In this document: in pieces, positions 11,633 through 41,567 of the stretch | How positions within the stretch are numbered: position 1 is the stretch's first letter | Layout of the letters: every line of letters begins with the position of its first letter | DNA from: an uncultured SAR202 cluster bacterium | GTDB lineage: Bacteria; Chloroflexota; Dehalococcoidia; Lucifugimonadales; Lucifugimonadaceae | Assembly (NCBI GenBank): GCA_902620405.1 | Contig: CACNIC010000001.1 | Span: forward strand, 124,001-188,000 | Direction of reading: 5' to 3' | DNA: 64,000 nt | The notes under the pieces: model-generated | Database searches by the model: none | Seen by the model: the letters and a program-made list of their open reading frames with translations, nothing else | What the model was told of the DNA's origin: nothing | Translations under genes and position numbers: made by a program

Positions 11633-11677
11633 ATGAATTTTGCTAAGTTGTGTTGCATAAATTGTTGTATTTTATGA
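11633..11677 (+). CDS. 14-aa cysteine-rich leader peptide MNFAKLCCINCCIL
   Basis: ATG directly after the Rrf2 TAG; 4 Cys codons of 14; followed by an intrinsic terminator ahead of moeB. Confidence 0.7.
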   Translation: MNFAKLCCINCCIL

Positions 11678-11702
11678 AGGGTATTTAAATTTTTACTCAA
11701 GT

Positions 11703-11729
11703 ACCCCGAATATTCGGGGTTTTTTTTTG
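11703..11729 (+). terminator. intrinsic terminator/attenuator in the moeB-cysM leader
   Basis: ACCCCGA-ATAT-TCGGGGT + T-run; the gene start is only about 10 nt past the T-run. Confidence 0.85.
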
Positions 11730-11739
11730 AAAGGAAAAA

Positions 11740-12555
11740 ATGTTTAATAAATTAACTCCAGATGAAGTAGATAGATATAGTAGACATATCATAATGCCTC
11801 AGGTTGGATCTGAAGGACAAAGAAAATTAAAAAATTCAAGTATTCTTATTGTTGGTGCTGGTGGCTTAGGATCTCCCGCTGCATTATATTTAGCTCTAGC
11901 AGGAGTAGGAAAAATAGGAGTTGCTGATTTTGATGTAGTTGACCGTAGTAATTTACAAAGGCAAGTTTTACATAGAGATTCAGATATTGGTAAAAGAAAA
12001 GTTGTTTCCGCAATGGAAACATTAAAAGCTTATAATCCTAACGTTGAAGTTATTATGCATGACGAACCCATTAATTCATCAAATGCTTTGCAAATTATAA
12101 ATAATTACGACGGGGTAATTAATGGTGCTGATAATTTTCCAACAAGATATTTAATTTGTGACGCTACATTTCTTTTAAAAAAACCTCTTTTTGACGGCAG
12201 CGTGTTAATGTTTGATGGTCAAGTTACAACATATGTTCCTAGTAAAAATTGTTACAGATGTATTTTTCCTGACCCACCACCACCGGGATCAGTTCCGAGT
12301 TGTTCTGAGGCAGGGGTTATTGGTGCTCTACCTGGATTAGTTGGAAGCATCCAAGCTATTGAAGCTGTTAAATATTTATTGGGTATCGGGGATGTGCTTG
12401 ATGGAAGAATGATCCTTATTGATGCTTTAAGCATGGAGTTCAGAACTGTCAAAATTAGGAGAAACAGTGATTGTGATTTATGTGGAGATGAACCTAAAAT
12501 ATCTGAATTAATCGACTACGAAGTTTTCTGTGGAATGCCTGCAGTTGAAAGGTGA
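11740..12555 (+). CDS. moeB: ThiF/MoeB/HesA family adenylyltransferase
   Basis: RYSRHIIMPQVGSEGQRKLKNSSILIVGAGGLGSPAALYLALAGVG; CYRCIFP and CDLC Zn cysteines. Confidence 0.93.
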   Translation: MFNKLTPDEVDRYSRHIIMPQVGSEGQRKLKNSSILIVGAGGLGSPAALYLALAGVGKIGVADFDVVDRSNLQRQVLHRDSDIGKRKVVSAMETLKAYNPNVEVIMHDEPINSSNALQIINNYDGVINGADNFPTRYLICDATFLLKKPLFDGSVLMFDGQVTTYVPSKNCYRCIFPDPPPPGSVPSCSEAGVIGALPGLVGSIQAIEAVKYLLGIGDVLDGRMILIDALSMEFRTVKIRRNSDCDLCGDEPKISELIDYEVFCGMPAVER

Positions 12556-13487
12556 CTATGCAAAAAAATATTGTTGAAACTATTGGTAACACTCCTTTAA
12601 TAGAAATTAGTGAAATAAGTCCCAACAGCGCAAAGATTTTTGCAAAACTTGAAAGCTCAAATCCTGCGGGAAGTATTAAAGATAGAGTTGCAAAATATCT
12701 TATTGAGTCTGCTGAGAAAAATGGAAATATAAAAAAAGGATCGACGATAATTGAGCCTACAAGTGGAAATACAGGAATAGCGCTTGCAATGATATCCAAG
12801 GTTAAAGGCTACAATATGATTGCAGTAATGCCAGACAATGTAAGCGATGAAAGAAAATCTTTACTTTCATCATTAGGTGCAGAAATTATTTTTTCAAATG
12901 GTGAAGAAGGAACCAACGGTGCTATTAGGCTTGCCCAAGAAATTGATAAAAATAATGATGATTATTTCATGCCATATCAATATGGAAACGAAGCAAATCC
13001 AAGAGCTCATTATGAGACAACGGGACCTGAAATTATAAAACAAATGCCTGATATAAATGTGTTTGTAGCAGGGCTTGGTACAGGTGGAACATTAATGGGT
13101 GTTGGAAAAGCTCTAAAAGAATATAATGAAGATATAAAAATCGTCGCTGCCGCACCTCATCCAGAAGAAGTTGTGCCTGCCTTAAGAAGCATTGAGCATG
13201 GATTTATACCTCCTATCTTAGATTTAGAAAAACTTGACTCCAGAATTCTTGTAGGGGAAGAAGAATCATTTTACTGGACTAAGGAATTGATGGACAAATG
13301 TGGGGTTTTCGCAGGCGTATCTTGTGGCGCTGTAACAGCGGCAGCAGTAAAAGTTGCGAAAAAAATTGAAAAAGGAAATATTGTTTTAATTATTGCTGAT
13401 TCGGGTGAAAGGTATCTTTCCAGTAGGTTATGGGACATGGAGTACAAAGAAATCAAAGAAATCGGTGATCAAAAAATATGGTGGTAA
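12552..13487 (+). CDS. cysM: cysteine synthase (CysM/CysK family, PLP)
   Basis: IVETIGNTPLIEI, SSNPAGSIKDRVAKYLIE, EPTSGNTGIALAMI, GTGGTLMGVG. Confidence 0.94.
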   Translation: MTMQKNIVETIGNTPLIEISEISPNSAKIFAKLESSNPAGSIKDRVAKYLIESAEKNGNIKKGSTIIEPTSGNTGIALAMISKVKGYNMIAVMPDNVSDERKSLLSSLGAEIIFSNGEEGTNGAIRLAQEIDKNNDDYFMPYQYGNEANPRAHYETTGPEIIKQMPDINVFVAGLGTGGTLMGVGKALKEYNEDIKIVAAAPHPEEVVPALRSIEHGFIPPILDLEKLDSRILVGEEESFYWTKELMDKCGVFAGVSCGAVTAAAVKVAKKIEKGNIVLIIADSGERYLSSRLWDMEYKEIKEIGDQKIWW

Positions 13488-28341: not shown

Positions 28342-28365
28342 TCCGCGTATCTTTCGATACACGGA
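28342..28365 (-). terminator. intrinsic terminator downstream of the SAM-II aptamer (expression platform)
   Basis: Minus strand TCCGTGTATC-GAAA-GATACGCGGA + U-tract. Confidence 0.85.
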
Positions 28366-28373
28366 CACGTAAT

Positions 28374-28428
28374 TTGCCTTTTAGCAGGTTTTTATAGTGT
28401 CCGCAAGCTGACTTTCAAATCAACACTT
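28374..28428 (-). ncRNA. SAM-II (SAM_alpha)-like riboswitch aptamer
   Basis: Minus strand AGTGTTGATTTGAAAGTCAGCTTGCGGACACTATAAAAACCTGCTAAAAGGC: P1 (AGTGT/ACACT), GATTT loop, CTTGC, and terminal GCTAAAAGG resemble the SAM-II pseudoknot; located ahead of metY. Confidence 0.8.
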
Positions 28429-28434
28429 ATATTC

Positions 28435-28464
28435 ATTATAACATAATTATTTTTTGTAATTCAA
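28435..28464 (-). promoter_or_regulatory. promoter for metY-metXW leader
   Basis: Minus strand TTGAAT (28464-28459), 18-bp spacer, TATAAT (28440-28435); expected start site lies at the aptamer 5' end. Confidence 0.65.
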
Positions 28465-38791: not shown

Positions 38792-39721
38792 TTATCTTGT
38801 TTCAATCGGCAACGAGCTATCATTACCCCATTCTGTCCAAGATCCGTCATATACTTTTACATTTTTTTCACCTAGTAAATCAGTAAGTATGAACCATGTA
38901 TGCGTAGCTCTAACTGCAGTTTGGCAAAGAGTATAAATTGTTTCACCATCGGTAATTCCTGCATCTCCATATAATTTTTTAAGTTCATCTGCAGATTTAA
39001 ATTCTCCGGTGTCATTTACTCCCATAACCCAATTAACATTTTTAGAATTAGGTATATGACCACCTCTTTCAGCCCTAACATCTTTACCTGAATATTCTTC
39101 TGGAGACCTTGTGTCGCAAACAATTTTTGAAGGATCGTCTATCGATTCAATTATTTCATCAAGCCCGGCAATTAAGCTACTATTTATAGATGAGCTGAAT
39201 TTATAATTTGAAGATTTTGGATCTGGTGGTGAAGTAGAAATTTCTCTTCCTTCACTTTCCCATTTACCCCAAACCCCATCAAGAAGTTTTGTATTTTTGT
39301 GCCCGTATACTTCAAGGGCCCATAGCCCTCTTGAAGACCATAAATTTGAATTGCCATCATAAAAAACAATTGTTGAATTTGGTGTAGCCCCAGTAATACT
39401 TAAATTCTTTTCAATATGGCTAGCTGAAGGAAGCATGCCTTTGACGCCATCTATTTCTTGCTGGAAAACTTCTCCTGGAGTCATATGAAAAGCTCCTGGA
39501 ATGTGACCAGAGTCATACTGCTCTTTTTTTCTTACATCAATAACAATAACATCTTCATTATTTAGTTCATTTTGAAGCCATTCTGTACTGACTAATCTTG
39601 ACGAATCATTATAACCTCTATCATCAATTTCATTGTTAAGTGAATTATCATCAGAAGAGCAACCAAAAACAAATAAAGAGATGATTATTATGGTTGGTAA
39701 ATATTTTTTTAAGTTTTTCAT
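38792..39721 (-). CDS. rhodanese-type sulfurtransferase lipoprotein (two rhodanese domains)
   Basis: VIDVRKKEQYDSGHIPGAFHM, YDGNSNLWSSRGLWALEVYGHKNTKLLDG, LCQTAVRAT active-site loop; FGCSS lipobox. Confidence 0.92.
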   Translation of the reverse strand: MKNLKKYLPTIIIISLFVFGCSSDDNSLNNEIDDRGYNDSSRLVSTEWLQNELNNEDVIVIDVRKKEQYDSGHIPGAFHMTPGEVFQQEIDGVKGMLPSASHIEKNLSITGATPNSTIVFYDGNSNLWSSRGLWALEVYGHKNTKLLDGVWGKWESEGREISTSPPDPKSSNYKFSSSINSSLIAGLDEIIESIDDPSKIVCDTRSPEEYSGKDVRAERGGHIPNSKNVNWVMGVNDTGEFKSADELKKLYGDAGITDGETIYTLCQTAVRATHTWFILTDLLGEKNVKVYDGSWTEWGNDSSLPIETR

Positions 39722-39751: not shown

Positions 39752-39979
39752 TTAGTTTTTTGTTAAGTAAATTTTCCACTCACCATCATTTTCTTCTTCA
39801 ATTTCACAATCAAAGCCTCTTTTCATTGCTTCAGGGGGAATTGTTGATAAAGCTGGAGGGTGATCTAATATTATTTCCAATGAATTTAATTTTGGATTTG
39901 AATCTAATTCTTTATTAGTTATCATCATAGGATATGGACAAATCTCACCTCTAACATCTAATGATTTTTCAAATTTCAT
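39752..39979 (-). CDS. TusA/TsuB-like sulfur carrier protein
   Basis: KSLDVRGEICPYPMMITNKEL (CPxP). Confidence 0.9.
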   Translation of the reverse strand: MKFEKSLDVRGEICPYPMMITNKELDSNPKLNSLEIILDHPPALSTIPPEAMKRGFDCEIEEENDGEWKIYLTKN

Positions 39980-40191
39980 TTAGCCTCCTTTGCTATTAAA
40001 TTTACTCTCCAAGAGTTGTCAGTAAATTTCATTTTGCATTTAATTTTTTTGTCTAAAATTTGCATTGGTATCATTTTTATAATTGTTTCTTCATTTGTAA
40101 TTATTGAAGTTTCTGTAAAACTGCTTTCAATGATTTCATTAACTTTTTTTATTTGATCACTCAATTTTGTGTTTCTTAAATCAATTACCAT
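39976..40191 (-). CDS. small protein, possible Cys-less TusA-fold paralogue; start trimmed to the MVIDLRNTK Met (approx.)
   Basis: MVIDLRNTKLSDQIKKVNEIIESSFTETSIITNEETIIKMIPMQILDKKIKCKMKFTDNSWRVNLIAKEAK; the longer listed ORF overlaps yeeE. Confidence 0.55.
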   Translation of the reverse strand: MVIDLRNTKLSDQIKKVNEIIESSFTETSIITNEETIIKMIPMQILDKKIKCKMKFTDNSWRVNLIAKEAK

Positions 40192-40193
40192 TT

Positions 40194-41414
40194 TTAAAAC
40201 CTGCTTATAATCTTTGTTCCTAAAAAGGCACCTATGGCCAGAGATAATCCGAATAACCACCCACTAAGACTCATTGAAGGTATTGCTGAAAAAAAGGATC
40301 CCAATGTACATCCAATTGCTAACCCTGCTCCATAACCCATAAGAAGCCCGCCGCCAAAAGATTGAACTAGTCTAACCGGATTTTTTGGCATTCTAATTTT
40401 GAATTCACCAGATAGTTTTGAAGCTAAAAAAGAACCAGGAATTATTCCATATGTTGCTGCAAAAGAATTAGAAAAATAATTTGAGTTTGATGCTGCATTT
40501 GCAACACAACCTCCAAGTTCACTCAAACCTTTTACAGCTGGTTCCAGCCCAATAATTCTTAAAATATCATTGGCAGATGAAAAAAGTTCTCCAGTAACAC
40601 CAAAAGGTTTCGATACCACAAGAAGAAAAGTACTAATTATTCCTAAAATTATTACTCCTGTAGGCATGTTCCAAGGTGTCTTAAATATTAAGTATAGTGG
40701 TGAGTAAAGCTTTTCTTTAAGAGAATTGAATTCGTTTGGTTTATTGGATATTTTAAATTCCTTGTAGCCTTTTTTATGTTCGTATATTGTTAACCCAATA
40801 TAAACAGCAATACCCAGAAATAAAGTAACCAAAAAAGCTCCAAAATAACCCATATTAAATAATTTAGGAAGCCATATTTTAGGTTCATTGGATATTAAAT
40901 TGTCCCACCACCAATCCCATGATAAAGAAAGTACTGATAAGCCAGTTATTACTCCTAAAATACTAAAAAGTGAAGCTATGTAACCTTCACCAATCCTATA
41001 CAGCGATCCTGATACACAACCTCCAGCAATTACCATTCCAATACCAAAAAGGACACCCCCAATAATTGTAGAAATGCCAAAAGGTAAAATATATGGATCA
41101 GAAGGAATAGATCCAATAGTTGGATTTTGTATTATGGATCTCATAACAAATATGAATAAAAAAGACGTTGTAATCAATCCTAGAATAATTGACTTTAACG
41201 TTTTCGTGCTACCAAAAAGAAATAGATCTCTAAAAGATGATGCGAAACACAGCCTGCTTCTCTGAAGAGTTATTCCAGCTATTACAGAAAAAATCCAAAT
41301 AATACCAGTTACACTACTTATCGAATTCAAATAAATACCAAAAATAATAATAAATAATATAGCCAATAATGATGTTGGCTTAAAAGATATTAAATTTTGT
41401 GCGATTTTTTCCAT
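40194..41414 (-). CDS. YeeE/YedE (TsuA-type, probable thiosulfate) transporter
   Basis: QRSRLCFASSFRDLFLFG, GMVIAGGCVSGSLYRIGEGY, GCVANAASNSNYF, GGGLLMGYGAGLAIGCTLGSFFSAI. Confidence 0.92.
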   Translation of the reverse strand: MEKIAQNLISFKPTSLLAILFIIIFGIYLNSISSVTGIIWIFSVIAGITLQRSRLCFASSFRDLFLFGSTKTLKSIILGLITTSFLFIFVMRSIIQNPTIGSIPSDPYILPFGISTIIGGVLFGIGMVIAGGCVSGSLYRIGEGYIASLFSILGVITGLSVLSLSWDWWWDNLISNEPKIWLPKLFNMGYFGAFLVTLFLGIAVYIGLTIYEHKKGYKEFKISNKPNEFNSLKEKLYSPLYLIFKTPWNMPTGVIILGIISTFLLVVSKPFGVTGELFSSANDILRIIGLEPAVKGLSELGGCVANAASNSNYFSNSFAATYGIIPGSFLASKLSGEFKIRMPKNPVRLVQSFGGGLLMGYGAGLAIGCTLGSFFSAIPSMSLSGWLFGLSLAIGAFLGTKIISRF

Positions 41415-41439
41415 AAAAAAAGCCCCGAATTTTCGGGGC
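41415..41439 (-). terminator. intrinsic terminator/attenuator in the yeeE leader
   Basis: Minus strand GCCCCGA-AAAT-TCGGGGC + U7, immediately followed by the yeeE ATG. Confidence 0.85.
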
Positions 41440-41468
41440 CGTCCATAACTTTACTAATTTAAACGCAG

Positions 41469-41528
41469 TTATATGACCCCATTTAAGGGAGTACAACAAC
41501 AGCAGTTTGAATTAGTAATATTTTTCAT
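41469..41528 (-). CDS. 19-aa polycysteine leader peptide MKNITNSNCCCCTPLNGVI
   Basis: Four consecutive Cys codons (TGC TGT TGT TGT) upstream of a terminator and the sulfur transporter; promoter places it nearly leaderless. Confidence 0.75.
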   Translation of the reverse strand: MKNITNSNCCCCTPLNGVI

Positions 41529-41538
41529 ATCAATGAGG

Positions 41539-41567
41539 ATAGTAATTTTTATATATCCATATGTCAA
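41539..41567 (-). promoter_or_regulatory. promoter of the yeeE operon
   Basis: Minus strand TTGACA (41567-41562), 17-bp spacer, TACTAT (41544-41539); predicted start about 3 nt before the leader ATG. Confidence 0.6.

Follow-up and report, generated by a model that had tools for sequence, protein, structure and literature searches.

A polycysteine leader upstream of a yeeE-like sulfur transporter gene is a probable transcription attenuator, one of an apparent set in an order of Chloroflexota

The short, cysteine-rich reading frame that precedes the yeeE-like sulfur transporter gene of a SAR202 cluster bacterium is very probably the sensor of a ribosome-mediated transcription attenuator that responds to the supply of cysteinyl-tRNA. 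We put the probability of this reading at roughly 0.88; termination, the response to cysteine, and the direction of that response are what we infer. The reading is strongly supported by sequence comparison among relatives. The yeeE element appears to be one of a set of similar attenuators placed before sulfur and cysteine genes across the order, and these bacteria seem to sense cysteine scarcity via the ribosome. Table 1 collects the features of this element and of a second one in the same window (the whole 64,000-nucleotide stretch of DNA that was analyzed).

Table 1. Features of the two leader elements and the adjoining operons in the window.
Feature	Positions	Strand	Basis or remark
-35 box TTGACA	41562..41567	-	sequence; similar boxes in relatives L003, L004, L062, L121
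-10 box TACTAT	41539..41544	-	sequence; 17-nt spacer after -35; leader ATG 10 nt further
leader ORF MKNITNSNCCCCTPLNGVI	41469..41528	-	ATG 41528, stop 41471-41469; orthologous leaders in six families
control codons TGC TGT TGT TGT	41493..41504	-	sequence; relatives' leaders
arm 1 (ACUCCC), able to pair with arm 2	41487..41492	-	MFE fold; conservation within close relatives
arm 2 (GGGGUCAUAUAACU), antiterminator 5' arm, spans leader's final codons and stop	41467..41480	-	
arm 3 (AGUUAUGGACGGCCCC), terminator 5' arm and flank	41435..41450	-	folding, duplex tests
terminator hairpin GGCCCCGAAAATTCGGGGC, stems GGCCCCGA/TCGGGGC	41440-41422	-	sequence
arm 4 (CGGGGC), terminator 3' arm	41422..41427	-	terminator hairpin -14.6 kcal/mol
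U7 tract	41415..41421	-	sequence; abuts yeeE ATG 41414
yeeE/tsuA-like sulfur transporter (PF04143)	40194..41414	-	Pfam E 1.7e-61
small ORF downstream of yeeE	39976..40191	-	~71 aa from ATG; no family match
TusA-like sulfurtransferase	39752..39979	-	PF01206 E 6e-18
two-domain rhodanese	38792..39721	-	PF00581 E 1e-35
second leader ORF MNFAKLCCINCCIL	11633..11677	+	begins right after Rrf2 stop; orthologues in G001, G003, G004, G005
second element arm 2 AGGGUAUUUA	11678..11687	+	duplex with AAGUACCCC, -10.2 kcal/mol
second element arm 3, terminator, and U9 tract	11699..11728	+	
MoeB/ThiF adenylyltransferase	11740..12555	+	PF00899 E 2e-80
cysteine synthase (CysK/CysM subfamily)	12552..13487	+	TIGR01136 358.7 bits, cut-off 344.15 exceeded

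The promoter, leader ORF, Cys codons, hairpin, and U7 tract reported in an initial annotation of this region proved exact base for base on the minus strand. The ORF comprises 19 codons, and the promoter position places the predicted 5' end of the transcript a few nucleotides from its ATG at 41528. Arm 2, which starts 12 nt past the Cys codons, can form a duplex of -17.5 kcal/mol with arm 3. Folding of the leader RNA, a check named in the same annotation, gave -40.1 kcal/mol, compared with -21.9 ± 3.1 kcal/mol for dinucleotide shuffles (z = -5.9; 0 of 200 shuffles as good). A blind scan of both strands of the window for at least four Cys in eight codons near a stop, followed by a terminator, returned two sites only, namely, the yeeE leader and an element on the plus strand (11633-11719) missing from the initial annotation; first-order Markov resampling of the window, done 40 times, never gave the pattern. 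At the gathering score, no Rfam 15 family lies over the leader (the matches in the window are one tRNA and a SAM-II riboswitch elsewhere), and no match fell on any leader among the 19 leader loci searched.

The arrangement of these features suggests how the leader could work. Judging from promoter geometry, transcription would begin a few bases upstream of the leader ATG, with a ribosome loading on a nearly leaderless mRNA. When cysteine is plentiful, the ribosome would clear the Cys codons and halt at the UAA, covering arm 2; arm 3 would then be free to pair with arm 4, and RNA polymerase would stop at the U-tract without reaching yeeE. If Cys-tRNA becomes scarce, the ribosome would stall on the Cys codons and the exposed arm 2 would pair with arm 3 as it emerges, so that the terminator would form too late and the sulfur-uptake operon would be transcribed. 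With no translation, the leader's own hairpin would hide arm 2, and termination would be the default.

We collected yeeE homologues from 100 relatives, from the order (250 genomes, of which 45 have yeeE), and from 394 genomes across the class, most of the related genomes being MAGs, and read the DNA upstream of them. By an automatic rule, a Cys-run leader ORF precedes yeeE in 24 of the 45 yeeE-bearing genomes of the order and in 1 of 51 outside it, where the single match is without a start codon. The initial annotation had made its proposal depend on conservation of the Cys codons and the hairpin among orthologous leaders, and such conservation was found: six families of the order have a poly-Cys leader ORF and a terminator before yeeE, and orthologous leaders of this kind occur down to 41 to 54% YeeE identity. 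The automatic rule overlooks the leader at L115 (C-S-C), loci L190 and L191 were left out for want of a leader start, and a Cys ORF 296 nt upstream at L025 was set aside as probably spurious. Genome G003 has two slightly different leader-bearing yeeE loci (L002 and L027), which are probably strain variants. Among 21 yeeE leaders, both Cys codons are used freely (71 TGT and 21 TGC, 92 in all), and the Cys run is the sole common part of the peptides, the remainder of which diverges. Over the end of the leader, GGGUUUCUU is kept as RNA while its frame differs, being read as RFL, GFL, RVSSV, or LVSLIC. A Cys run kept as codons, together with a tail kept as RNA, matches what an attenuator requires.

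A GTDB-wide peptide scan returned two close relatives only. Matches to the Cys-run pattern in the wider class were mostly coding coincidences when inspected; we therefore claim nothing outside the order. In a genome from another order, two stretches some 2 kb from each other (G105:C118:85189-85257 and 87387-87455) each have a Cys run, a stop, and a terminator; they are nearly identical and possibly the same kind of element. Further Cys-run and terminator stretches were seen in family f19 (G269:C79:35835-35907, G310:C9:2716-2785, and G365:C12:39746-39818).

For each leader, we asked whether the RNA that follows the last Cys codon can pair with the terminator's 5' arm. The combined p values were 4e-14 for yeeE leaders and 2e-28 for all leaders, both inflated by relatedness, and the shuffle test on the window leader alone gave p = 0.09. 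In a set of 23 less redundant leaders, pairings with the leader's own terminator averaged -16.9 kcal/mol versus -11.3 kcal/mol for swapped ones (permutation p = 5e-5). Arm 2 starts 5 to 19 nt past the last Cys codon in most of these 23 leaders; it is located at or just past the front edge of a Cys-stalled ribosome and at or near the leader stop codon. The arm pairs have a different sequence in each family and the same layout throughout (GGUUUC/GAAACC, GGGGUC/GGCCCC, GUGAGGU/ACCUCAC, and GGCUGGGGUGUGG/CCACACCCCAGCC).

We also modeled the nascent RNA by folding it before arm 4 exists, with the ribosome at the Cys codons, at the stop codon, or absent. Over 36 leaders, the pairing of arm 3 was 0.68 for a ribosome at Cys and 0.22 for one at the stop (Wilcoxon p = 6e-10). 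For the yeeE leader of the window, the corresponding values were 0.79 and 0.25, with 0.25 again in the absence of a ribosome; the mean of the relatives in this last state was 0.43, and the hairpin that would keep the default off varies among them. Full-length equilibrium folding with masked ribosome positions favored the terminator in nearly all leaders, mostly without switching (0.98 in all ribosome states for the window leader). Because the terminator wins at equilibrium, the switch would have to be kinetic and decided during transcription, as is usual for trp-type attenuators. The competition between 2:3 and 3:4 pairing that had been suggested for the window leader appears to be borne out by these duplex, permutation, and nascent-fold tests on many leaders.

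Most of the leaders are probably leaderless, as had been suggested for the window ORF; promoter geometry and missing Shine-Dalgarno motifs favor this. No Shine-Dalgarno-like motif was found upstream of any of 39 leaders (background 10.7%), and within the 18 nt preceding the start, 56% of them carry a -10 match of 5/6 or better, versus 12% at random positions, with a median distance of 9 nt from -10 box to start codon. In the GTG-started leaders L115 and L121, the start lies exactly 6 nt after the -10 box, and a good -35 box is present at 17-nt spacing. The second element of the window is not leaderless, its ATG coming directly after the Rrf2 stop codon.

This second element sits between the gene of an Rrf2-family regulator and an operon for MoeB/ThiF and cysteine synthase, and its arms 2 and 3 covary within the genus (GGGUA/UACCC in the window, GGGUA/UGCCC in G003, and GGGCA/UGCCC in G001). 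A pattern search in the 100 relatives gave 123 matches, versus 17 for the reversed pattern, overlapping matches being counted. At the 28 loci that we read, the device precedes genes for sulfite reductase, PAPS reductase, an OAH-sulfhydrylase-family enzyme, and MoeB/ThiF, as well as AhpC/TSA peroxiredoxin, DUF4395, PhyH-type dioxygenase, and RimK-like ATP-grasp genes, which with yeeE makes nine kinds of target gene. One leader (L169) has seven consecutive Cys. In the leaders of PhyH genes (L181-L184 and L188), the antiterminator arm lies between two Cys clusters, the later of which is at the stop. According to the model, a ribosome stalled on this later cluster would mask arm 2, and such two-sided leaders could respond non-monotonically to Cys-tRNA.

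The SAM-II (SAM_alpha) riboswitch of the window (28361-28436, minus strand) lies upstream of an O-acetylhomoserine sulfhydrylase gene (28289-26967). Although Rfam names this family after alphaproteobacteria, it occurs here in Chloroflexota, and L006 has a further copy. A gene of this enzyme family in a different genus (L175) has a poly-Cys attenuator upstream instead of SAM-II.

The product of yeeE, initially annotated as a thiosulfate-type YeeE/TsuA, is a PF04143 transporter, but it misses the NCBIfam cut-offs for both TsuA and YedE/FdhT (for the TsuA equivalog, 140 bits versus 400 and 84.5 versus 645), and family scores do not fix its substrate. On this basis, it can be assigned only to the sulfur transport family, the substrate being thiosulfate or another sulfur or selenium species. 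We considered selenium transport since YedE/FdhT is the best NCBIfam match; it is left unproven by the below-cut-off scores together with the Cys leader and the TusA and rhodanese neighbors. In yeeE homologues from two families of the class (L202-L206; f100 and f112), an in-frame TGA occurs at one conserved site (VPGT-TGA-V) that aligns with a Cys of the window YeeE (LGGCV). By this alignment, these are likely a selenocysteine form of YeeE/YedE.

Could the leader act on yeeE other than by attenuating its transcription? It might control translation, with the terminator-like hairpin masking the yeeE start in the manner of the mycobacterial poly-Cys sORFs, which are described as translation attenuation in PMC13236596 and PMC9031893. 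The U-tract of the window does abut the yeeE ATG without a Shine-Dalgarno motif. However, a T-run follows the hairpin in every accepted leader, and some target genes start far downstream with a start region of their own, as with a PhyH gene that begins some 350 nt past the leader stop, so that masking cannot work there. We consider translational control quite unlikely.

Cys-rich peptides are able to bind metals, and the nascent peptide might itself sense metal, redox state, or sulfide and arrest the ribosome as a peptide rather than through a shortage of Cys-tRNA. The peroxiredoxin and DUF4395 genes among the targets would suit such a sensor. Against this, the number and spacing of the Cys residues vary widely (CSC, CCCSC, CICCCC, or seven in a row), no other residue is conserved, and the targets mostly make or import reduced sulfur and cysteine, which makes a peptide sensor very unlikely. 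That an unrelated terminator merely follows a meaningless ORF could be entertained for a frame of so few codons, but it is scarcely credible given the conservation in six families, the empty resampled windows, and the excess over reversed-pattern matches among the 100 relatives.

If cysteinyl-tRNA attenuation is the correct reading, it looks like a main way in which these marine bacteria adjust the uptake of sulfur, the reduction of sulfite, and the synthesis of cysteine to their needs. We think it likely that this order, whose members are mostly uncultivated, runs a cysteine regulon without a dedicated regulator for the signal. Poly-Cys transcription attenuators, built separately and for the most part leaderless, would stand before nine or more kinds of sulfur, cysteine, and redox genes and would have arisen independently of those of mycobacteria. 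The device can serve as a sequence rule by which the cysteine regulon is located in genomes of uncultured bacteria. It also suggests sulfur-related functions for the DUF4395, peroxiredoxin, and PhyH genes, and, as an attenuator with a leaderless start and a terminator, it can be tested in a laboratory host.

The trp/his-type attenuators of Proteobacteria combine control codons, 1:2/2:3/3:4 pairing, and a terminator before the structural gene. The yeeE leader resembles them in its several codons for the regulated amino acid, its intrinsic terminator before the first gene, its mutually exclusive antiterminator, and the spacing of its control codons, by which a stall would expose arm 2 and the stop would cover it. 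It differs in using cysteine, in being probably leaderless, and in having a transporter as its target. The trp attenuators of Actinobacteria have also been described (PMC1262725). The operon itself resembles the YeeE/TsuA and YeeD/TusA-like system (PMC11073785) in joining a PF04143 transporter with a TusA-like sulfurtransferase; the window operon adds the two-domain rhodanese and the leader attenuator, and its transporter falls short of the TsuA equivalog.

Cysteine-directed attenuation is rarely described, and the reports that we found concern Actinobacteria and the cysS gene of one alphaproteobacterial order. The leaderless poly-Cys sORFs of mycobacteria (Canestrari et al. 2020, as cited in PMC9094748, PMC9031893, and PMC13236596) were first seen in PMC4633059 (2015), which called its own cysteine attenuation candidates the first in bacteria; similar Cys leader peptides had already been predicted in 2005, without conserved terminators (PMC1262725). 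Like the leaders described here, they are short ORFs (here probably leaderless) with a Cys run that head sulfur and cysteine operons, and ribosome speed on the Cys codons would be the sensor in both. Unlike these sORFs, which belong to another phylum and are described as translational, each Chloroflexota leader is equipped with an intrinsic terminator as well as an antiterminator that matches it. The uORFC-8-2 motif upstream of cysS in Rhodobacterales, for which ribosome-mediated attenuation was proposed (PMC8632094), is similar in that an intrinsic terminator comes after a uORF with tandem Cys codons. It has two Cys codons and is found before cysS alone in one alphaproteobacterial order, with no multi-operon set, whereas the genes downstream here are yeeE, moeB-cysK, and others. 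In the literature searched, which covered few subscription papers, we found no report of a poly-Cys attenuator in Chloroflexota. Poly-Cys attenuation was known before; the order-wide, terminator-based version proposed here for Chloroflexota is new.
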